Shown in pieces: positions 1,035 to 18,571 of a stretch of 25,177 nucleotides of DNA. The DNA is taken from positions 1-25,177 of IMG/VR virus record IMGVR_UViG_3300027782_000340; one strand, written 5' to 3'. Positions within the stretch are counted from its first letter, which is position 1, and each line of letters begins with the position of its first letter. This DNA comes from a virus. Both the position numbers and the translations under genes were made by a program. The notes under the pieces are model-generated. The model was not told where the DNA came from. It ran no database searches and saw nothing but the letters and a program-made list of their open reading frames with translations.

Positions 1035-1685
1035 ATGGCAACAATAGGATCGGGTAGATCATCATTAATAAGAAGTAAAACAGCTGCCGGATCGGCAGTA
1101 AATTATACTTTGGTAAGATATGAAGGCGCTACTACTACAAGCGGAACAGTTGGATCCAGTACCTGTATATATGAACTGTATTTATTTACAGATGGATTTG
1201 TAGAAATGAGATTAGGCAATTGGGCTAATTCTGGTGGATTTTCCGGTCATTATACTGCTGGAGGAACTGGTACATCTCTTTCTCCATCAGCTAATACTAC
1301 ATATGTTTGGAACGCAACAGGAACAACCACTACATTTTTAGCTGGTTATCAATATATAAACGGAGTCGCAACAGCCGCAGGATCAACAAACCCTTCTTTA
1401 GGGGCAAGCTCCGTGGGTAGTTGGCCTCCTACAAGTTGGACCAGTTTACAAAATGGGAGTGTGGATGATAATTTCGTTTCAGTAACAATAGCCCCAACAA
1501 CATTTTTTGGTACATCCCGAACCACTGCATATATTGGTAGCAACGCTTATATTACATTTGGAGCTGGCAGCGCTCTTTATAGCGGTTTAAGTGCTACAGT
1601 TCCAGCTGTAGATAAATTCATGTTTAACGCGGCTGATAGAAGTTATCAAAGAGTTGCGTATTTAACTGCGGGTGGATCAAAATAA
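1035..1685 (+). CDS. Putative tail fibre/virion surface protein
   Basis: A 216-residue protein rich in Ser, Thr, Gly, Ala and aromatic residues, with alternating hydrophobic beta-strand character and no membrane segment or signal peptide. Composition and its place between a collagen-like fibre and a tail-fibre chaperone suggest a fibre tip or adhesin-like structural component. I do not recognise a named domain. The motif VRYEGATTTSGTVGSSTCIYELYLFTDGFVEMRLGNW-like N-terminal half (described by position: residues 28-63) looks like a compact beta domain. The start ATG at 1035 lies 5 nt after the previous stop and has no Shine-Dalgarno sequence, so translation may be coupled to the fibre gene. 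It could instead be a head or tail decoration protein; the context argues for the tail. Confidence 0.65.
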   Translation: MATIGSGRSSLIRSKTAAGSAVNYTLVRYEGATTTSGTVGSSTCIYELYLFTDGFVEMRLGNWANSGGFSGHYTAGGTGTSLSPSANTTYVWNATGTTTTFLAGYQYINGVATAAGSTNPSLGASSVGSWPPTSWTSLQNGSVDDNFVSVTIAPTTFFGTSRTTAYIGSNAYITFGAGSALYSGLSATVPAVDKFMFNAADRSYQRVAYLTAGGSK

Positions 1686-1692
1686 TAAAATT

Positions 1693-2139
1693 ATGAAAGT
1701 AGCAAAAATAATAAACAATTCAATTTATATACAAAGTATTTATACAATGTTTCCTAACGTTTCATTTCCTGACGTTGGTGTACCTGATGAATTTTTACAG
1801 ACTCACAATTTATATAAAGTACTTGAATATATACCACATAATCCAGAAACACAAATCTTTAATTTATTAGATGTGCCAGTACTAAAAGATAATATAGTTT
1901 ATACAGTTGAAGTTTTAGATAAAACAGCCGCGGAAATTAAATCAGATAAGCTAATAAAAGTCAGACTGTATCGCACTAATCTTTTAAACGAATCTGATAG
2001 TTACGTCACAATTGATAGATGGGAAGCTTATTCAGATGCGCAAAAAACTGCATGGAGACAATATAGACAGTCTTTAAGAGATATACCTCAAATCGCAGAT
2101 GATTTAGATAATATTGTATGGCCTATTAAGCCAAATTAA
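1693..2139 (+). CDS. Tail fibre assembly chaperone-like protein (Phage_tail_APC type)
   Basis: A protein of about 148 residues. Its C-terminal part (roughly residues 92-148) has the hallmark order of phage tail assembly chaperones of the APC family: R-x-x-LLxxSD, then D(R)W, then a W-R-Q-Y-R-Q-SLRDIPQ helix, and finally IVWPIKP. These proteins help fold or trimerise tail fibres and are usually encoded next to the fibre gene, as here. The frame extends upstream to a GTG at 1672, which overlaps the previous gene by 14 nt, but the ATG at 1693 gives a more natural N-terminus (MKVAKIINNS) and clears the overlap, so I chose it. The N-terminal half (PNVSFPDVGVPDEFL) resembles the variable fibre-specific part of such chaperones. 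The fibre target is inferred to be one of the two proteins just upstream. Confidence 0.8.
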   Translation: MKVAKIINNSIYIQSIYTMFPNVSFPDVGVPDEFLQTHNLYKVLEYIPHNPETQIFNLLDVPVLKDNIVYTVEVLDKTAAEIKSDKLIKVRLYRTNLLNESDSYVTIDRWEAYSDAQKTAWRQYRQSLRDIPQIADDLDNIVWPIKPN

Positions 2140-2299: not shown

Positions 2300-3466
2300 A
2301 TGATTACTAATAAACATAAAATATATTTGGATATGGATGGAGTAATAAGTGATTGGGAATCACAGTTTAAGCGCTATAGTGGTGGAGTGCCTGTAGAAAC
2401 TTATGATGTTGAGCATGGCAAAAAAAATAGATTTAAATTTGTTGATAAAAATTGTCCTGAATATTATTCTACAATGCCTTGGATGAAAGATGGTAAGTTG
2501 CTTTATAATTTTGTAAAAAATTTACCTGTAGAAATATTGAGTCATGCACCTAGTAAATTATCTTATATTGGTAAAAAGCAATGGTTAGCTAATAATAAGA
2601 TTGATATTGAAGCTAATTTGGTACCGCATAGAAATTTAAAAGCAAAGTTTGCAAATGCTGATAGTATTTTAATAGATGATCGTGAAGATAATGTAAATGA
2701 TTTTATAAATGCTGGTGGCAAAGCAATATTGCATAAAAATGCTATAGATACTATTAATCAACTAAAAGAAATGTTGGGTATTAAAGAAAAACATAGAATT
2801 TATAATAGTATTTTAAATCCTGAAATTTGGGCAACTAAAGATGAAATAAAGCCTGAAGTATTAAATAAACTATTAACTATAGCAAATACTTTCTACAAAG
2901 ATACTGATTTGAATGTACCGCTTGAAAATGTATATTTTCTTGGTAGTACCGCCGGATATAATTGGTCACCCACCAGTGATATAGATTTACATTTGCTTGT
3001 AGACTTTTCTAAGATTGCTGATAATAAAGAAATTGTTAAGAATTATGTGGGTGGATTAAAAAGTAAATGGAATGATTCGCACGATATTCGAATTGGTAAT
3101 CATCCGGTGGAAGTTTATATTCAAGATGTTAATGAAGTTAACCGAAGTCAAGCTGTATATAGTTTGACTAAAAATACTTGGGTAAAAAAGCCACAAATAG
3201 AAGACATACAGATTGATAAAGCTACTATTTCAAAGAAATATAAAGAATATGTAACATTTATTAATACGGCTGTAAAAGAACAAGATCTAGACAAATTGAA
3301 ACGTTTGGTAAAGCGGTTATATGAAATGCGTGAAGCTGGATTGGATAAAAGTGGAGAATACAGCACAGAAAACTTAGTGTTCAAACTTTTGAGATCCAGT
3401 GGGTACGTTAATCAACTAAAAGACGCGATAAATAATATCACGGATAAAAATTTGAGTCATATTTAA
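2300..3466 (+). CDS. HAD-family phosphatase fused to a DNA polymerase beta-type nucleotidyltransferase
   Basis: A 388-residue two-domain enzyme. Residues 7-160 are a HAD hydrolase close to 5'(3')-deoxyribonucleotidases: nucleophile motif D11-M-D13-G-V, a motif II serine at S81 (EILSHAP), lysines K92/K93 as motif III candidates, and the D126-D127 acidic motif IV (LIDDRED). Residues 205-280 are a nucleotidyltransferase: FLGS at 213-216, S226-D227-I-D229-LHLLVD, and a third carboxylate E271 in VEVYI, so all three metal-binding acids are present. Residues 281-388 are a helical C-terminal region with REAGLDKSGEYSTENLVFKLL, a segment I associate with phage nucleotidyltransferases. The HAD part would remove a phosphate; the second would transfer a nucleotide. 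Substrate is unknown: nucleotide, NAD-like compound, RNA end or protein are all possible. It has its own upstream promoter-like elements and lies just before the tail tube gene. ATG at 2300 has no Shine-Dalgarno sequence. Confidence 0.8.
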   Translation: MITNKHKIYLDMDGVISDWESQFKRYSGGVPVETYDVEHGKKNRFKFVDKNCPEYYSTMPWMKDGKLLYNFVKNLPVEILSHAPSKLSYIGKKQWLANNKIDIEANLVPHRNLKAKFANADSILIDDREDNVNDFINAGGKAILHKNAIDTINQLKEMLGIKEKHRIYNSILNPEIWATKDEIKPEVLNKLLTIANTFYKDTDLNVPLENVYFLGSTAGYNWSPTSDIDLHLLVDFSKIADNKEIVKNYVGGLKSKWNDSHDIRIGNHPVEVYIQDVNEVNRSQAVYSLTKNTWVKKPQIEDIQIDKATISKKYKEYVTFINTAVKEQDLDKLKRLVKRLYEMREAGLDKSGEYSTENLVFKLLRSSGYVNQLKDAINNITDKNLSHI

Positions 3467-3526: not shown

Positions 3527-4018
3527 ATGGCAGAACTACTAAATCCATCAGAAATTTTTTCAACAGCTTTTGAACCAAAAGTAAAGAATCGTTTTATTCT
3601 TTACGTTGATGGTCTTCCATCATTCATTATTAAAAAGGTCAATCGTCCTAAGTTAACACAAGCTAAGAAAGAACTTGACCACATGAACATAAAAACTTAC
3701 TACAAAGGTAAGAGTGTTTGGGATGATATCAGTATGGAACTTTATGATCCAATTGTACCATCTGGCGCTCAAGCAGTAATGGAGTGGGTTCGTTTGCATC
3801 ACGAATCAGTTACTGGTCGTGATGGTTATCAAGATTTCTATAAAAAAGATCTTACTATTAACGTTCTTGGCCCCGTCGGCGATAAAGTGGAAGAATGGAC
3901 ACTAAAGGGTGCATTCATCACAAGCGCTGATTTCCAAGAAATGGATTGGAGCGATGATGGTGCCGCTCAAATGATTAGTTTAACAATATCAATCGATTAC
4001 GCAATTCTTCAGTATTAA
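3527..4018 (+). CDS. gp19: Tail tube protein, T4 gp19 family
   Basis: 163 residues, the same length as T4 gp19. These subunits stack as hexameric rings to form the inner tail tube, built up inside the sheath from the baseplate. Supporting features are the N-terminal MAELLNPSEIFSTAFEPKVKN-like opening, the central F-(I/V)-xx-VNRPKL strand (residues 34-42), the WDDISMELYDPIVPSGAQ segment (65-82) and the C-terminal beta strands ending in MISLTISIDYAIL, all typical of the gp19/Hcp tube fold. A Shine-Dalgarno-like AAGG sits 8 nt before the ATG, rare in this window, and all arginine codons I checked are CGT, unlike the AGA-rich tail genes nearby; both fit very high expression. It is followed within 25 nt by a strong terminator, so it is probably transcribed as a short unit. 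The sheath gene gp18, usually just upstream, is not in the window. Confidence 0.93.
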   Translation: MAELLNPSEIFSTAFEPKVKNRFILYVDGLPSFIIKKVNRPKLTQAKKELDHMNIKTYYKGKSVWDDISMELYDPIVPSGAQAVMEWVRLHHESVTGRDGYQDFYKKDLTINVLGPVGDKVEEWTLKGAFITSADFQEMDWSDDGAAQMISLTISIDYAILQY

Positions 4019-4041
4019 GATTTGGTAACCAAATTAAAAAG

Positions 4042-4065
4042 AACCCCACATTTATCTGTGGGGTT
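4042..4065 (+). terminator. Intrinsic terminator after tail tube gene
   Basis: Perfect 9-bp stem AACCCCACA/TGTGGGGTT with loop TTTATC, followed by TTCT. Starts 24 nt after the gp19 stop. The T stretch runs straight into a CTATTTAT box for the next gene. Confidence 0.93.
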
Positions 4066-4067
4066 TT

Positions 4068-4081: not shown

Positions 4082-4978
4082 ATGCAAATGGGCAAGAAAG
4101 TATTCGTCATTTATCCTGGTAGATTTCATCCTTTTCACACAGGTCACAAGGGTGTATATAACTATTTAAGCACCAAATTTGGTGGCAATGACGTATACAT
4201 AACAACCACCGGAGTAGTTGAATTGCCAAAGTCACCTTTTTCATTTGATGAGAAAAAAGAAATGATGATGGCAACTGGTATACCATCCAATAAAATACTA
4301 AATGTCAAAAACAACTATAATCTGCAAAGTGTATCAAGTCAGATACCAATCAATGTAGAACGTGACAGTATTATTTTTGCGGTTAGTCAAAAAGATATGG
4401 CTGAAGATCCAAGATTCAAGAACTTTGTCAAAAAAGATGGATCTCCTTCGTATTTGCAGCCAATGCCAAAAAATGAAAGCAAATTGGAACCAGCAATTAA
4501 ACACGGTTACTTAATTACAGTGCCAACAACAGATTTTACAGTATTAGGATTACCAGCAAGAAGTGCAAGTCAATTAAGATCTCAGTATTCAACACTAAAG
4601 CCCGAACAACAAAAAGCATTTATTGTGGATCTATTTGGTAGTTATAATCCCAAGATACATAAGATATTAAACAACAAATTGGGTAACACCAGTGGTAAAT
4701 TGACAGAAAAGCAAAAGAAGCTATTAAAGAAATTGATTGTGGGTATCTTAAAAGAAGACGAAGATAAAATAAATTCTGCCAAAGAAAAACGAAATGCGGC
4801 TGAAGAGGATCTTCGACAAGCGGAACTTGAAGGCGCAGAAGAAGATTTAAAAAAAGCAAATGATAATTTATCATCGGCTACTACTCCAGAGGAAAAAGAT
4901 GCCGCTGAGGCAAATGTAAAAATAAAGAAGGCTTTGGTGGATAGTAAAAAAATTGCGTTGCAATCAAAACAAGATTAA
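4082..4978 (+). CDS. Cytidylyltransferase-like (HxGH) nucleotidyltransferase with coiled-coil tail
   Basis: 298 residues. Residues 6-170 are a class I nucleotidyltransferase of the cytidylyltransferase/NMN adenylyltransferase superfamily: VIYPGRFHPFHTGH holds the HxGH signature (H19-T20-G21-H22), and LPARSASQLR (157-166) is the ISTRxx-like second site. Such enzymes transfer AMP or CMP onto a phosphorylated substrate with release of pyrophosphate. The substrate cannot be read from sequence. Residues 225-298 are a Glu/Lys/Ala-rich helix, probably a coiled coil for oligomerisation or tethering. The protein lies between tail tube and baseplate genes, so it might be virion-associated or simply expressed late. 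ATG 4082 and ATG 4088 are both possible; I prefer 4082 because its spacing from CTATTTAT matches the other boxed genes. No Shine-Dalgarno sequence. NAD salvage, lipid-head or sugar activation are alternatives. Confidence 0.8.
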   Translation: MQMGKKVFVIYPGRFHPFHTGHKGVYNYLSTKFGGNDVYITTTGVVELPKSPFSFDEKKEMMMATGIPSNKILNVKNNYNLQSVSSQIPINVERDSIIFAVSQKDMAEDPRFKNFVKKDGSPSYLQPMPKNESKLEPAIKHGYLITVPTTDFTVLGLPARSASQLRSQYSTLKPEQQKAFIVDLFGSYNPKIHKILNNKLGNTSGKLTEKQKKLLKKLIVGILKEDEDKINSAKEKRNAAEEDLRQAELEGAEEDLKKANDNLSSATTPEEKDAAEANVKIKKALVDSKKIALQSKQD

Positions 4979-5027: not shown

Positions 5028-5849
5028 ATGAGTGACGAAATTATTATTCAAAAATTAAAACAACAACATTCAGCTGCTCCCACACCTGTAGCTACAAGTT
5101 ATCCATCTGAAACAATTGATTTGCCATCAAAGGGTTATTTTTATGATGAATCTAATCCATTGAGCAAAGGAACCATTGAATTAAAGATGATGACTGCTAG
5201 GGAAGAAGATATTCTGACCAATGAAAATTTCATCAAAAATGGTACCGTATTGGATAAGTTGATGGAAGGTCTAATTGTTACGCCCGGCGTAAGAACTCAA
5301 GACTTGTTAATGATTGATAAAAATTCTTTATTTATCGCTGCTAGACGATTGGCATATGGTGATAAATATGGACCAGTAAAGATTGAATGTAAAAAGTGTA
5401 ATACCGAAAACAAAACTTATATTGATTTAAGCACATTAAATGAAAAAGAAACGGATTTTAGTAAGTTTCAAAAAGGTACCAACGAATTTGAATTTGAGTT
5501 TCCATTCAGCAAGAGACGGATCACGTTTAAACTGATTACGTCAGGTGATCAAGAAAGTATTGATCGTGATATTAAGGCTCTAACCAAGATTAAAAAACAT
5601 TCTAGCACCGAAGTTACTACTAGACTTAAAAAACTGATCGTCAGTATTGATGGAAAGCCTGATATAGCGGCTATTAATAAGTTTGTTGATAATGAGCTAC
5701 TATCAAAGGACAGTATGGCGTTGAGATCTTATGTTAAAACAATTGCGCCTGAATTGGATATGGGTTTTGACTTTGTATGTGAACACTGTGGTGAGGTGGA
5801 AAGGATGGATGTACCTATGACGGTACAGTTTTTTTGGCCTGAGTCCTGA
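5028..5849 (+). CDS. gp26: T4 gp26-like baseplate/tail assembly protein with zinc-type Cys pairs
   Basis: 273 residues in the base frame. Residues 29-65 have the conserved T4 gp26-family opening: IDLPSKGYFYD, then NPLSKG and the MTAREEDILT motif. Two cysteine pairs, C121-x-x-C124 and C251-x-x-C254, would make a four-cysteine metal site. In T4, gp26 acts in assembly of the baseplate hub, and its genes lie just before the tape measure gene, as here. The last codons read TTT TTT TGG then stop at 5847-5849; the seven T residues at 5829-5835 coincide with the point where the +1 frame opens into a further 70 codons with fibre-free, conserved-looking sequence. This suggests two products: 273 residues, and about 339 residues after a +1 shift, as tail assembly chaperones do in other phages. 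The start ATG has no clear Shine-Dalgarno sequence. Family assignment is good, exact hub role is inferred. Confidence 0.8.
   Translation: MSDEIIIQKLKQQHSAAPTPVATSYPSETIDLPSKGYFYDESNPLSKGTIELKMMTAREEDILTNENFIKNGTVLDKLMEGLIVTPGVRTQDLLMIDKNSLFIAARRLAYGDKYGPVKIECKKCNTENKTYIDLSTLNEKETDFSKFQKGTNEFEFEFPFSKRRITFKLITSGDQESIDRDIKALTKIKKHSSTEVTTRLKKLIVSIDGKPDIAAINKFVDNELLSKDSMALRSYVKTIAPELDMGFDFVCEHCGEVERMDVPMTVQFFWPES
5829..5835 (+). other. T7 slippery run, candidate +1 (or -2) programmed frameshift site
   Basis: In the gp26-like frame the codons are CAG TTT TTT TGG. A tRNA-Phe on the second TTT can move +1 onto TTT with full pairing, making the next codon GGC and opening the downstream frame. A single-tRNA -2 slip on the run also reaches that frame. 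A one-base homopolymer error in the assembly would give the same picture. Confidence 0.55.
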
Positions 5850-6083: not shown

Positions 6084-9000
6084 ATGGCAGCACAACCATT
6101 TGATGAAAAGGCCGCAGCGGCCTCAAGAGAGTACTTAAAGAACTTAATTGATATAAACTCGGAAATCGGACAAACACTGGGCGATTTACGCAAAATAACT
6201 GTCGCTGAACAGAACAATGTGGATATAGCCAAATCTTTGGGGCAAGTATATAAAACACAACAAGATAAGCTTAATGAACAGTTAAAAGGAAAAAGTCTAC
6301 AAGAACAAATATCATTGAAACTTCAAAATTCCGAATCGGAATTAGAGAAATTATCATCGGCACGTATCAGTAGCCACAAAACATCATTGAAGTTAGGTCA
6401 GGAATTATTTAAATTACATGCTGATCTGGTTAATTTGCAAGGTAGTAATGCTCTGAGCTCAGAGATTGAGGCTAAGATAAAATTAATTGAAGAAACAGAA
6501 ACTCAGTTAAATTTAGAAAAGAAGTTATTAAGCAATAGTGGTTCTCAGTTAGAATCGTTAAAACTATATAATGATACATTAGGTGCGACTTTAAAGATTT
6601 CAAAGGCAATTGGTGCTATAATGAGTGAATTAAACATTCCAACATCTTTTAGTGGTCTGTTAAAACAAACATACGAAAGATTCAAAGAAATCGATAAAGC
6701 TGCAACCGAAGTTCGTCAAACATTTGCGTTATTTAGACAAGACGCCGAATATATAGAGACAAATATTAAAAATATAAGTACAGATCTTGCTAAATTTGGA
6801 GTTACGGCTAAAGATGTGGCATCAACATCAAAATCTATAGGATCCGTATTTAGTTCAATTGATATTGCAAATACATCATTGGTTAGTGATATAACACTGT
6901 TATCCAAACAAATGGGGATTACATCTGATAAAAGTGTTGGTTTTCTTAAAACTATTGGTGGAATTAGCGGTCAGAGTGCAGTTGCTAGTAAAAATATGTT
7001 GAGCCTAGCTGGTGCTTCAGCAAAAGCTTATGGTGTTGGATTAGATGATGTGATGAACGACGTTGCAACCGCATCCGACGCGTCTAGAATGTTTGCTGGT
7101 AAAAACGCAGATGAACTGGTTAGAGCTGCAGCTCAAGCTAGACAGATGGGTACTACTCTTGATAATATGGCAAATACCGCAAAAGGTTTGCTTGATTTTG
7201 AAAGTAGTATTCAATCGGAATTAAAAGCTAGTGCATTAATTGGTAAAAATATTAACTTCAATGAAGCTCGTAGATTGGCATTTAATAAGGATACTATTGG
7301 GGCAAATAAATTAATATTGGAACAAGCTAAGAAAATTAAGTTCAATCAGTTAAATCCAATTGCACAAGAGGCATTTGCAAAAGCAGCTGGTAAGAGTGTG
7401 AAAGAATTGCAGGATATGTTGGAGGCAGAAACTCGTATAAAAGACGCACTGAACTCACAGGATCCTGTTGTTAGAAAAATAGCACAAGAAAGATTAAAAG
7501 AACAAAATTTATTGAAAACTAATAGTAAATTAGCTCAACAAAAATTTGAACAAGATTTGAAAACTAAAGCGAACCAAGAAAGATTGGCTATAGTACAAAA
7601 TAAAATAAATGATGCGTTACAAAAATTAATGTTGCCTGTTTTAGAACTCATTTCTAAAACGATGGATGGTATTGTATATATTTTTGAAAAGTTTAATCCT
7701 GAGGAATTAATAGGCCCTTTAATACGAATAAAATTGATGTTTACATCGGTTGGTACCGCGCTTCGTGAATCTTTATTGTTTCCACTTAGAGTTGCAAGTG
7801 GATATCTATCTAAGTTAGGAGATGTTGGGTGGATTAAAAATTTGTTATCGCCGATAACAATGTTGATAGAAAAAGTAAAAATTTTTATAGGAAACTTTCA
7901 GTATGCCAGATCGTTAGGCGCAAATTTTGCGCAGTCTTTTTTATCGGCTGGAAATGCGGTTGGTGGGATTTTTTCAAAAATAGGAAAACTTTTGGCCGGA
8001 ATGCCAATTGATTTTGTAATATCCAAATTTAATATTTTTAAAACATTTGTATCATCAATATTTAATGCTTTAAAAACACTCGTTTCATCAATATTTTCAC
8101 CTATTACAAACGCAATTAAACCGATAATAGGTGCGTTTAAATCTGTTGGAGAAGGATCTAAATTTTTAAAACCTTTACTAGGCTTTTTAAAAATCGGAAA
8201 ACTTGGTTTAACAGCTGTTCCTATTTTGGGTGAAATAATAATGGCTATAGAATTTATATATAATGCGTGGAAAAGAATTAGTGTAATATTTAATGATCCA
8301 AATTTAAACATTGGACAAAAAATATTTGCATCTGTTGTTGGGCTTTATGGTGCTTTGTATGATACATTAATACAACCATTTATTGATATTGGCGAATGGA
8401 TTATAAAAGCCGTTTGGGGAGAAGATATTTTGAAAGGTATAAAGGCAACAGTAAATGATATATATACTATACTCAAATCTCCATTTGAAAAGGCATATAA
8501 TTGGATAATGGATCTATTGGGCGGTAAATCTCCATCAAAAATTGGTTTAGCAATCGTCGATGGTATAGAATCTGTAGTAGATATGTTATTTGATGTACTT
8601 ACATATCCATTTGAAAAAGCATCTAAAATTATACCTGGTATTATTAATATTTTAAAAATAATATTTGTTGACGCTTTTAAATCAGTTGTAGATATAATAT
8701 TTGATTTGATTACGTATCCGTTTAAAAAAGCCGCTCAAATTATACCAGAGATTATTAATATTTTAAAAACAACATTTGTTGAGGCTTTTAAATCGGTGGT
8801 GGATATAATGTTTGATTTGATTGCAGAGCCATTTAGAAAAGCATTTCAACTAATAAAGTCTGCTGTGGCCGAAGTTGGATCTGTTCTAAAAGATACATTC
8901 AGTGGGGCTTTTACATTTATTATTAATGCACTTGAAAAAGTGTTGGAGAAGTTAAAGGGTGTGGGTGGATTTATAACTGACTTAGTAGGAAAAGGATTTA

Positions 9001-15508: not shown

Positions 15509-16807
15509 GTGGAGTATTCATCTAAAATTTATTTAAAATTAATTACAAAACACGATAATTATCATAACGCTTGTAATGATATTATTGCTGCTTTCATCTT
15601 TAATTTTAAAGATGGTACTAAACAATATTTAAATTTTGAACATAACGATTTACCTATAGATTGTACATTTAAAGAGTTTAAATCTGAGATTGAATCGCAA
15701 AATTTAATCGTGTATGTCAATAATAAAAAGACATACAAGTACTGGTTAAATTGCAATTTGATAGATGTTAATTTGTTTGGATTCATCGACAGCAATGAAA
15801 TATTAGATGAAGTAGAGTGTTTGACTGAGAACTTTCTGAAATACAATTATCGTAATATCAATAACTTTAATTTGATATTACCATATGTTATACATCAACG
15901 AATATTTGACGTTGAGATAAAGCAAATTGAGACGTTGGGCGATAAAGACATAGATAATTATTGTTTTAAGTTTTTTAATAACGTTATATCTGACACTTTG
16001 TTTGAGGTGGAAAAAAATGGATTAAAAGTTGATACAGACGTATTTTCAAAATACTTTAAAAGTAAAACATATAACAAATTCATATACACAAACTACAATA
16101 TCTACAATCCTACTGGTAGACCAAGTAATGCATATGATAATATTAATTATGTAGCGCTCAAAAAAGATGATGGGTCCAGAGCTAGTTTTGTGTCTAGGTA
16201 TGGAGAATCCGGCCATTTAATGATGGTAGATTTTACCGGATTTCATCCGTATATTGTGGCTAATTTGATTGATTATAAAGTTCCTGATAAGGAAACGATA
16301 TATGAACATTTAGCCAAATATTATTTTGATGTTGACACAGTAACATCTGAAGATATAGCTAAATCAAAGAAATTGACGATGGTTAATCTATATGGACAAA
16401 TTTCACAACAGTACTGTAACATTCCGTATTTCGCAAAGGTAAACGAATTAAAGGATAAGTACTGGCAAAAATTTGAAAAGAATGGATATATAACAACTCC
16501 AGTATACAAACGTAAAATTACAAATAAGCACATTGTTGATCCCAACAGAAATAAATTGTTTTCTTATATAATTCAAGCTGCTGAGACTGAATATGGAATT
16601 GATAGTCTGAGTAAGTGTATTAAGTTTGTTAGTGATAAGAGAATTGTACCCATACTATACGTGTATGACTCAATTGTATTTGATGTACACAATGACACAA
16701 ATAAACAAGAATTAATTGATTTGGTTGATATTATCAAAAACAAACGATTTAAAGTAAAAACCTATATTGGAAATAATTACAATGATTTGAAATTAGTCCA
16801 AATGTAA
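15509..16807 (+). CDS. Divergent family-A DNA polymerase-like protein
   Basis: 432 residues; the start is GTG because an in-frame TAA lies at 15503-15505 and no upstream ATG exists. Family-A motifs are visible in order. PTGRPSNAYDNINY (201-214) matches the TGR-xS-xx-(P)N-xQN segment. Motif A is MMVDFTGFHP with D241. Motif B is K287-K288 ... Y295-G296 (the K-x7-YG spacing). An RNKLFSYIIQAAETE helix (347-361) matches the NR-xx-Q-xxAAD region. Motif C is YVYDSIVFDV with D387. Both catalytic aspartates remain, but motif A has His at the usual Glu position, motif B lacks the upstream Arg, and motif C is YDS instead of HDE. The first 150 residues have no convincing 3'-5' exonuclease motif. T4-like phages normally replicate with family-B gp43, so this may be a second specialised polymerase or an inactive relative. 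It sits alone between tail and replication genes. Confidence 0.75.
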   Translation: MEYSSKIYLKLITKHDNYHNACNDIIAAFIFNFKDGTKQYLNFEHNDLPIDCTFKEFKSEIESQNLIVYVNNKKTYKYWLNCNLIDVNLFGFIDSNEILDEVECLTENFLKYNYRNINNFNLILPYVIHQRIFDVEIKQIETLGDKDIDNYCFKFFNNVISDTLFEVEKNGLKVDTDVFSKYFKSKTYNKFIYTNYNIYNPTGRPSNAYDNINYVALKKDDGSRASFVSRYGESGHLMMVDFTGFHPYIVANLIDYKVPDKETIYEHLAKYYFDVDTVTSEDIAKSKKLTMVNLYGQISQQYCNIPYFAKVNELKDKYWQKFEKNGYITTPVYKRKITNKHIVDPNRNKLFSYIIQAAETEYGIDSLSKCIKFVSDKRIVPILYVYDSIVFDVHNDTNKQELIDLVDIIKNKRFKVKTYIGNNYNDLKLVQM

Positions 16808-16834: not shown

Positions 16835-18571
16835 ATGAACTTTAAATCATTAGTAAACGAAATTGGTTGTGATAGTCGTATCAAAAACGGAACATTGGAT
16901 CTTAAAAATGAAGATCACGTTTTTGTATTGCAGGAGTACTTGGAGAAGGCTGGTTACGATATTAATGAAATTGTAGATAAAACAGCTAGATTATTTGAAG
17001 CTGGTAGATTTCCTGAAAGACAAGCATACAACAAAGACGGTATACTTGTAACGTTTCCAAATAAACAATATAGAGATAGAGCTGTAAACAAAGGAACTCA
17101 CTTTGCTGAAAATCCTAAAAAGGCACAAACTAATATTTTCACTGCAGACGCTGAAAACGGAGTCGGTCAACAATCACCTTCCGGCGAAGATAAAAAACAA
17201 CCAGTTACACTGGATCAAACATTGGAAAAAGATATTGTTGGTGATAAAAATACAGACGAAAGAACACCAAGAGAAAAGAAACAAGATGCTTATGGAGTAG
17301 AGGCTATATTGATGGGTCAAACTCCATTGGTAAACTATAGTGTTGATGAAGCTATAAAGTATGGGTTTTATAAAAAAGGAATGATTTGGTTTAATACCGA
17401 AGGTCAGTTAATCGGAGAACAAGTATTTGATGAATATACTAAATCTCCAATTATACAATCAATCATAAAAGAAAATGCAGAGGATATAGAGGATGCTATT
17501 GTAAATGCTTTATACAATAGAGGATATCCATATGACAAAGATATTGAAAATGTAGCTAAAAAAGTTGCTAATTCTATAAAACCAATTGTTGGTCAATTAA
17601 AAAATGCACAACGTGTTGGTAGAGAAACTGCAAACTTAAGTGAGTTCTGGAGATCTTATAACGCAACCGATAACACTCCTAAAACTGACGTTATTATCAA
17701 TGATTTTAAATCGTCTGTTAAATATGGTCCATCTCAACTAATGTCTGGTGGTAAAAATGAATCTTTGGCTACGTTTATGGCCGCTGTTGATTCAACTCCA
17801 TCAGTAGACGCAGAAATTATTAAAAATGCAACCGGAATGTTAAACAACTTTGTTTCAGTCACTAGAACGGTAGAAGGTGGTGTTGAAGATTTGTTAAGAA
17901 AAAAACCATCTGATATTAAATCTGAATTAGAAAAGAAGGTGAAAATAATTGCGGATGCAGGCGATAAAGCTCATAAAGATTTAATGTTATATTTAGATAC
18001 AGTGTTTAGTCAAAACCAAGCATTTAAACATTCTTTTGTAAGAGAGGCTATGACTGGAGAACACAAATTTTCAAATGGATCATTTGCGATTGCAAATTAT
18101 ATTTTATCGGTATCTAAGAATGGTGAATCAATTTATTTCAACCAAATCAATGACACGGTTGTCAATAGCGTAGCTAATTCAACAAAAGTTTCGGTAAGAT
18201 TCAAATCAACTTCTGTTAAAAAGAAGGGTGAAAAAACAGGAGAGTATAACTTCTGGAGTGTAGTAGGTTTAATAGTTAAAGACTACAAGGAAAAGTATAC
18301 AAAAATAAATGAATTATTAAATTCTGGTGATGTATTGACTGAAGGAATTGTTGATCAAGTTAAATTGTTTTTGCAAAATGTCTGGAAGTTTATCACAGAT
18401 ATTTATGAAAAGATTATTACATATATAAAACAAGGGTTTGAATATGTAATTGATTTCTTTGGTGTTGATTTACAAAATGAAGATATATTTGTTAATGGAA
18501 TTGCTGGTGGTAATAGCATAAATATAGATTTTTCTAAGATACTGAATGACAACACACCCGTATCTGAATAG
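16835..18571 (+). CDS. Unknown protein with possible PD-(D/E)XK nuclease-like core
   Basis: 578 residues, no named domain certain. The segment around 281-310 reads TPKTDVIINDFKSSVKYGPSQL then MSGGKNES, giving D285 ... S-V-K296 ... Q301 ... E309, a pattern seen in restriction endonuclease-like folds (acidic residue, short strand, then S/E-x-K). This segment also looks like one I associate with conserved hypothetical proteins of T4-like phages. Residues 1-60 form a small helical domain (with EIGCDSRIKNG); 90-150 are polar and probably disordered; 510-550 hold an amphipathic hydrophobic helix (VKLFLQNVWKFITDIYEKII), possibly membrane-associating. Alternatives are a virion or ejected internal protein. 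It is preceded by two ATATTTAT boxes and no Shine-Dalgarno sequence. Confidence 0.6.
   Translation: MNFKSLVNEIGCDSRIKNGTLDLKNEDHVFVLQEYLEKAGYDINEIVDKTARLFEAGRFPERQAYNKDGILVTFPNKQYRDRAVNKGTHFAENPKKAQTNIFTADAENGVGQQSPSGEDKKQPVTLDQTLEKDIVGDKNTDERTPREKKQDAYGVEAILMGQTPLVNYSVDEAIKYGFYKKGMIWFNTEGQLIGEQVFDEYTKSPIIQSIIKENAEDIEDAIVNALYNRGYPYDKDIENVAKKVANSIKPIVGQLKNAQRVGRETANLSEFWRSYNATDNTPKTDVIINDFKSSVKYGPSQLMSGGKNESLATFMAAVDSTPSVDAEIIKNATGMLNNFVSVTRTVEGGVEDLLRKKPSDIKSELEKKVKIIADAGDKAHKDLMLYLDTVFSQNQAFKHSFVREAMTGEHKFSNGSFAIANYILSVSKNGESIYFNQINDTVVNSVANSTKVSVRFKSTSVKKKGEKTGEYNFWSVVGLIVKDYKEKYTKINELLNSGDVLTEGIVDQVKLFLQNVWKFITDIYEKIITYIKQGFEYVIDFFGVDLQNEDIFVNGIAGGNSINIDFSKILNDNTPVSE

Follow-up and report, generated by a model that had tools for sequence, protein, structure and literature searches.

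Why a virus should encode a fused phosphatase and nucleotidyltransferase among its tail genes, and what such a protein would do, is the question raised by the locus described here. The window, i.e., the whole stretch of DNA analyzed (25,177 nucleotides, positions 1 to 25,177 of IMG/VR record IMGVR_UViG_3300027782_000340), had been read beforehand from its letters and open reading frames. This sequence-only reading described a HAD phosphatase joined to a pol beta-type nucleotidyltransferase beside the tail tube gene, judged both active sites intact, and left the tail-operon context unexplained. Our answer, to which we assign a probability of roughly one-half, is that the fusion is a two-headed nucleotide enzyme of a polyvalent-like phage module set, made late, probably associated with the virion, and used on the host early in infection. 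The features on which the argument rests are listed in Table 1.

Table 1. Positions of the fusion gene, its modules and active-site residues, and the adjacent genes in the window
Feature	Position	Strand	Basis or remark
Tail fiber assembly chaperone, upstream neighbor	1672..2139	+	PF16778, E = 9e-14
HAD-nucleotidyltransferase fusion, 388 aa	2300..3466	+	Single uninterrupted ORF
HAD phosphatase module, residues 1-163, putative 5'(3')-deoxyribonucleotidase/NT5C type	2300..2788	+	phrog_2643, NT5M profile matches, Foldseek
HAD motif I, D11-x-D13 (predicted nucleophile and acid/base)	2330..2338	+	Invariant in 19 aligned modules
HAD motif III lysine, K114	2639..2641	+	Invariant in 19 aligned modules
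HAD motif IV, D126-D127 (predicted Mg binding)	2675..2680	+	Invariant in 19 aligned modules
Flexible hinge, residues 162-166	2783..2797	+	pLDDT < 50 in model
Putative nucleotidyltransferase module (pol-beta palm and C-terminal helical bundle), residues 167-387, phrog_36119	2798..3460	+	PHROGs, model, fold comparison
Transferase G215-S216	2942..2947	+	G invariant, S in >90%
Transferase D227-x-D229, predicted metal-binding pair	2978..2986	+	Invariant
Transferase third carboxylate, E271	3110..3112	+	Conserved in >90%
Tail tube gene (gp19-like), downstream neighbor	3527..4018	+	phrog_4542, E = 4e-27; order conserved
Intrinsic-terminator-like hairpin 3' of tail tube gene	4040..4067	+	Strong hairpin, 11-pair stem
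NMNAT-like (HIGH) nucleotidyltransferase, third module	4082..4978	+	PF01467, E = 6e-5; kept in same place
T4-type baseplate hub gene, downstream neighbor	5028..5849	+	PF12322, E = 1e-11

The fusion gene and its predicted architecture

The fusion protein is barely visible to Pfam and NCBIfam, and a direct search of PDB chains with its sequence gave no credible match. In PHROGs, residues 3 to 159 correspond to phrog_2643 (5'-3' deoxyribonucleotidase, E = 5e-23) and residues 168 to 386 correspond to phrog_36119 (E = 6e-45), a family with no listed function; the two domains and their position beside the tail tube gene were thus confirmed. Thirty-seven loci with 87 to 100% identity were retrieved from IMG/VR, and all of them contain the whole fusion except L043, which is a truncated contig. 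These relatives exclude an assembly artifact as the source of the fusion. The same arrangement, which the sequence-only reading had suggested looking for in other phages, is also present in more divergent loci (L058 to L067, L069, and L077), whose identity in the transferase half ranges from approximately 74% down to 43%. In the two comparisons without synonymous saturation (L016 and L040), dN/dS was approximately 0.04 to 0.08 for the HAD half and 0.07 to 0.10 for the transferase half, which points to purifying selection on both halves.

Structure prediction by AlphaFold2, likewise suggested earlier, gave confident models of the whole fusion (mean pLDDT, 90.3) and of the transferase alone (pLDDT, 92.7). 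Since residues 162 to 166 are disordered in the model of the whole fusion and its pTM is 0.53, the two domains are placed independently, and the halves may be pictured as beads joined by a flexible hinge.

The HAD phosphatase domain

The residues of motifs I, III, and IV do not vary among the aligned HAD modules. In a search of known structures, the profile of these modules matched human mitochondrial 5'(3')-deoxyribonucleotidase best (PDB accession number 4mum; E = 2e-8), with the active-site motifs aligned, and no Pnkp was found among its matches. The Pfam NT5C model (PF06941) matches 17 of the 19 HAD family members at an E value of 0.1 or lower (best, 6e-15), and the HAD domain of the window alone lies below detection for every Pfam model. 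With the full fusion model, the top Foldseek match was 6g2l, which is also a mitochondrial 5'(3')-deoxyribonucleotidase. By sequence and predicted fold, we assign this half to the NT5C-type phosphatases, with (deoxy)nucleoside monophosphates as putative substrates. The 5'(3')-deoxyribonucleotidases (NT5C/NT5M) have in common with it the D-x-D-G-V sequence of motif I, the motif III lysine, and the IDD sequence of motif IV, whereas the viral module is shorter, is phage borne, and is fused or coupled to a nucleotidyltransferase.

The nucleotidyltransferase domain

In an alignment of 53 transferase modules, in which alignment position plus 160 gives the protein residue, Gly215, Asp227, and Asp229 are invariant, and Ser216 and Glu271 occur in more than 90% of the modules; the third acid is lost in L108. 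The active-site acids named in the sequence-only reading were therefore correct for both halves, and they are conserved in the aligned modules rather than decayed in most relatives. The G-G/S and D-x-D motifs and the third carboxylate are found on a palm fold, as in the pol-beta superfamily. The models suggest that this palm is followed by a C-terminal helical bundle and that the domain belongs to a phage family of its own, and uncharacterized phage proteins among the viral structures match the transferase model at a TM score of 0.9. Among characterized proteins, the matches were to AAD(9) (best), AadA, CD-NTases, and MNT antitoxins, and these are weak (E = 3e-4 and TM score = 0.28 for the best), so that any substrate class assigned to the transferase is a guess. 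The CCA-adding enzyme of A. fulgidus ranks 21st in the fold comparison, and only its palm is matched, over approximately 110 columns. The pol-beta palm, bearing the G-S and D-x-D motifs together with the third carboxylate, is found likewise in AadA/AAD(9) and in the MNT antitoxin nucleotidyltransferases, and AadA resembles the phage transferase further in carrying a C-terminal helical domain behind the palm. Unlike AadA and MNT, the transferase described here is phage centered and has its own C-terminal motif (MR..GL...GE.S.ENLVFK.LR).

A profile-derived scan found the transferase at 586 viral loci or more (i.e., at least 586) and at 23 loci in cellular genomes (84,980 species, one genome each), most of which are titled metagenome or single-cell assemblies; the family is phage centered. 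Named phages that carry it include cyanophages, Lak megaphages, Maribacter phages, and Caulobacter phage Cr30.

Gene neighborhood

In the clade of the window, the order HAD-transferase, tail tube, NMNAT-like protein, and T4-type baseplate hub is retained in relatives at approximately 60% identity, and the fusion precedes the tail tube gene in every relative whose contig extends that far. The NMNAT-like family profile matched an archaeal NMNAT (E = 7e-8). The NMNAT-like protein of the window, encoded between the tail tube and baseplate hub genes, has a charged, alanine-rich C-terminal extension. In some relatives, an antisense ORF of approximately 500 aa lies between the HAD/transferase and tail tube genes (positions 6662 to 8170 in L070 and 7212 to 8717 in L013); it possibly encodes a homing-type endonuclease, and that of L013 matches DUF7487. 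A scan for sigma-70 promoters gave no excess over shuffled sequences, and Rfam gave no match. Elsewhere in the window, the tail-fiber-like protein encoded at positions 37 to 1029 contains a long, collagen-like stretch of GTSGSSG repeats (Pfam Collagen, E = 2e-15), and a 432-aa ORF (positions 15509 to 16807) resembles, by eye, a portion of a family A DNA polymerase, with no Pfam match at an E value of 0.01.

Fusion, splitting, and recombination of the modules

The HAD and transferase modules are fused in the window, L066, L069, and L077 and are encoded by separate genes with ATGA overlaps in L068 and L070 to L072 and with a short overlap in L084. Homologues are thus found as fusions and as coupled gene pairs, rather than always split and unlinked. 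Other loci combine these modules with the NMNAT-like domain and a zincin: L094 has a single 809-aa ORF of NMNAT-like, transferase, zincin, and HAD domains; L108 has an NMNAT-transferase-zincin polypeptide followed by an HAD gene; L179 has an NMNAT-zincin-HAD arrangement; and Flavobacterium phage immuto encodes a 907-aa NMNAT/zincin protein, with a weak Polbeta match, followed by an NT5C HAD gene. Loci L092 to L117 include transferase-zincin proteins of up to 1851 aa, and the very long ones have in common a repeated SGYIPTxxQAxDPRFSMALTxDIKPG motif beyond the zincin. Further partners of the transferase are a zeta-toxin/kinase-like P-loop domain (L090), an M23 peptidase with a peptidoglycan-binding domain (L111), and an amidoligase (L093). 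Taken as observed, HAD, transferase, NMNAT-like, and zincin domains are a linked module set that phages fuse, split, and recombine.

When the transferases were clustered at 70% identity, 47 groups were obtained, with a same-strand HAD within the fetched locus in 16, an NMNAT-like gene in 14, a tail tube gene in 13, and a zincin in 7; since it was the window that seeded the similarity searches yielding these loci, the linkage fractions do not describe a random sample. Among 36 transferase-bearing records searched whole, an HAD match at an E value of 0.001 or lower was present in 13 (nine of them strong) and an NMNAT-like match was present in 22. An obligatory pairing of HAD and transferase was rejected on these counts; many phages have the transferase with no detectable HAD, and the two steps are therefore not obligately coupled.

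Polyvalent proteins, as surveyed by Iyer et al. in 2017 (PMC5512222), occur in phages and conjugative elements, are modular, and include zincin-like peptidases; their genes lie near late virion genes, injection into the host is proposed, and the survey found pol-beta nucleotidyltransferases only in the polyvalent proteins of conjugative elements. The module set described here likewise combines enzyme domains of unrelated kinds within single polypeptides and shuffles them among relatives, and the window fusion is likewise encoded among virion genes, between the tail chaperone and tail tube genes. The window fusion differs from polyvalent proteins in having two domains and no zincin-like peptidase; the zincin is found in its relatives (L094, L108, and L092 to L117). 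The combination of an HAD, a phrog_36119-type nucleotidyltransferase, and an NMNAT-like protein was not found in the part of the 2017 survey that was available (PMC5512222).

Homologues in purified virions

In cyanophage S-CREM2, the transferase homologue is gp156 (positions 126012 to 126725), a stand-alone transferase whose entire length is covered by its match to phrog_36119 (E = 3e-90). Mass spectrometry of CsCl-purified S-CREM2 virions detected this protein, annotated as "hypothetical" ORF156, by 6 unique peptides with 15.2% coverage (PMC10665884, Table 3), together with the NMNAT-like cytidylyltransferase ORF154 (3 peptides; PMC10665884). The assignment of gp156 as a nucleotidyltransferase, made by homology, appears to be new relative to the literature consulted. 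Intervening gp155 was considered as a possible HAD and rejected, being a charged, unrelated protein, and no HAD partner was found in the whole S-CREM2 genome. NMNAT-like proteins have also been reported in virions of other cyanophages (PMC9602691). The virion-associated NMNAT-like and kinase proteins of cyanophages (S-CREM2 and S-SCSM1) thus offer a parallel in which homologues of two of the modules, gp156 and gp154, occur in virions, whereas in S-CREM2 these are separate genes rather than a fusion. The occurrence of a transferase homologue in virions is a candidate answer to why the fusion lies in a tail operon. Together, the place of the fusion among late tail genes and the presence of homologues in virions suggest that it is probably made late and carried in or on the particle.

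Several points weigh against this preferred reading, the weak fold matches to AadA among them. The S-CREM2 detection may be lysate carry-over, a caution that its authors gave for nonstructural proteins (PMC10665884). In several cyanophages and in Caulobacter phage Cr30, the transferase gene is near replication genes and not structural genes. No virion proteomics was found for the phage lineage of the window, and none was found in the paper on Maribacter phage Molly, where it was sought. Finally, the window protein does not have the T4-like capsid-targeting N terminus present in some relatives. That targeting sequence is typified by the N terminus of T4 IPII and IPIII (MKTYQEFIAE; NC_000866), in which residues 4 and 7 are important to targeting, and residues 8 and 10 to processing (PMC9026906). 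The same spacing occurs at the N termini of 8 of 90 family genes (0.05 expected from internal positions of the same proteins) and of 21 of 715 neighboring genes (1.0 expected), a comparison in which the pattern was picked after the sequences had been seen and in which N-terminal amphipathic helices could arise otherwise. T4-like capsid targeting was rejected as the packaging route of the window protein, whose N terminus, MITNKHKIYLDMDG, is without the pattern. Separately, in L090, L108, L177, and L079, unrelated clustered genes have a common MIKLKNILxE-like N-terminal motif with spacing similar to that of the T4 sequence, and a 578-aa protein of the window (positions 16835 to 18571; phrog_22045, E = 5e-11) begins with MNFKSLVNE, which is similar to the capsid targeting sequence with a one-residue shift.

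Functional interpretation

On the preferred reading of a late-made, virion-associated enzyme, the NT5C-type half would dephosphorylate (deoxy)nucleoside monophosphates or some comparable small compound, and the AadA/MNT-like half would transfer a nucleoside monophosphate to either a host protein or a small molecule. The fusion may then act as infection begins, either by changing the nucleotide pools of the host or by shutting down one of its responses. The sequence-only reading had offered a nucleotide-modifying enzyme that counters host defense as one of its possibilities, and we keep this as the leading idea, with packaging, delivery, substrates, and the counter-host role of the window protein being inferred. 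A more specific proposal, which we put forward tentatively, is that a nucleotidyltransferase and nucleotidase in the virion are injected with the DNA, nucleotidylate a host protein or signal, and alter the nucleotide pool before phage expression. MNT antitoxins provide the model for nucleotidylation of a host target, and the fusion would do by nucleotidyl transfer what T4 Alt does by ADP-ribosylation. T4 Ip2 and Ip3, injected phage proteins with anti-defense roles, are a newer precedent (PMC12373910). A toxin-antitoxin or known defense protein was rejected, the PADLOC matches being weak and partial only.

An explanation within intracellular nucleotide or NAD metabolism, in which (d)NMPs or NMN would be the substrates trimmed by the HAD and NAD-type dinucleotides the product of the NMNAT-like protein, with the transferase acting on a metabolite and nothing packaged, is rather unlikely. 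The NT5C-like HAD, the archaeal NMNAT match together with the frequency of NMNAT-like proteins in transferase-bearing records, and the kinase-like fusion partner in L090 are all in keeping with it; against it stand the location of the fusion among tail genes, the detection of homologues in virions, and transferases fused to zincins and to an M23 peptidase with peptidoglycan-binding domains.

Repair of RNA or tRNA ends, in which the HAD would take off a 3'-phosphate and the transferase would re-extend the end, is improbable. This "heal-then-extend" idea was drawn in the sequence-only reading from CCA-adding enzymes and T4 Pnkp, which likewise unite a phosphatase with a nucleotide-handling domain in a single chain. 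The partner phosphohydrolase of CCA-adding enzymes is an HD domain, not an HAD. By Pfam, the fusion has neither an HD nor a tRNA-binding domain, nor any RNA-binding domain, and its transferase is not close to CCA enzymes. T4 Pnkp combines a 5' kinase with a 3'-phosphatase HAD, whereas the window protein has no kinase domain and its HAD is of the NT5C type. Weak matches of the transferase half to MTPAP-like and NTP_transf_2 models, and of 2 of the 19 HAD members to HAD_SAK_2 (RNA repair), speak for repair; against it, no RNA ligase or tRNA was noticed within the window, and the transferase often occurs without an HAD. On grounds of family and fold, we rejected CCA-adding or Pnkp-like repair as the foremost explanation.

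A tail assembly or structural accessory protein with vestigial or repurposed enzymatic residues, in which adjacency to the tail tube gene would reflect an assembly function, would fit the conserved position immediately upstream of that gene in the window clade, but it is very improbable given the strong conservation of catalytic residues in both domains and the many phages whose homologues are unlinked to tail genes.

Implications

For family phrog_36119, which is large, phage centered, and listed without a function, the analysis provides a predicted fold and a putative active site, names partner domains, and links the family to the virion. These modules are reshuffled among phages, and one was detected in the purified particles of a related phage; they may therefore be tools delivered into the host. 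If this is true, nucleotidyl transfer would join the chemistry that phages deliver with their DNA, alongside the ADP-ribosylation of T4 Alt, and the puzzling NMNAT-like proteins of cyanophage virions would then belong to a single, testable set of modules. If the fusion instead serves simple nucleotide metabolism, a gene unannotated in many aquatic phages and gut megaphages would still be explained.
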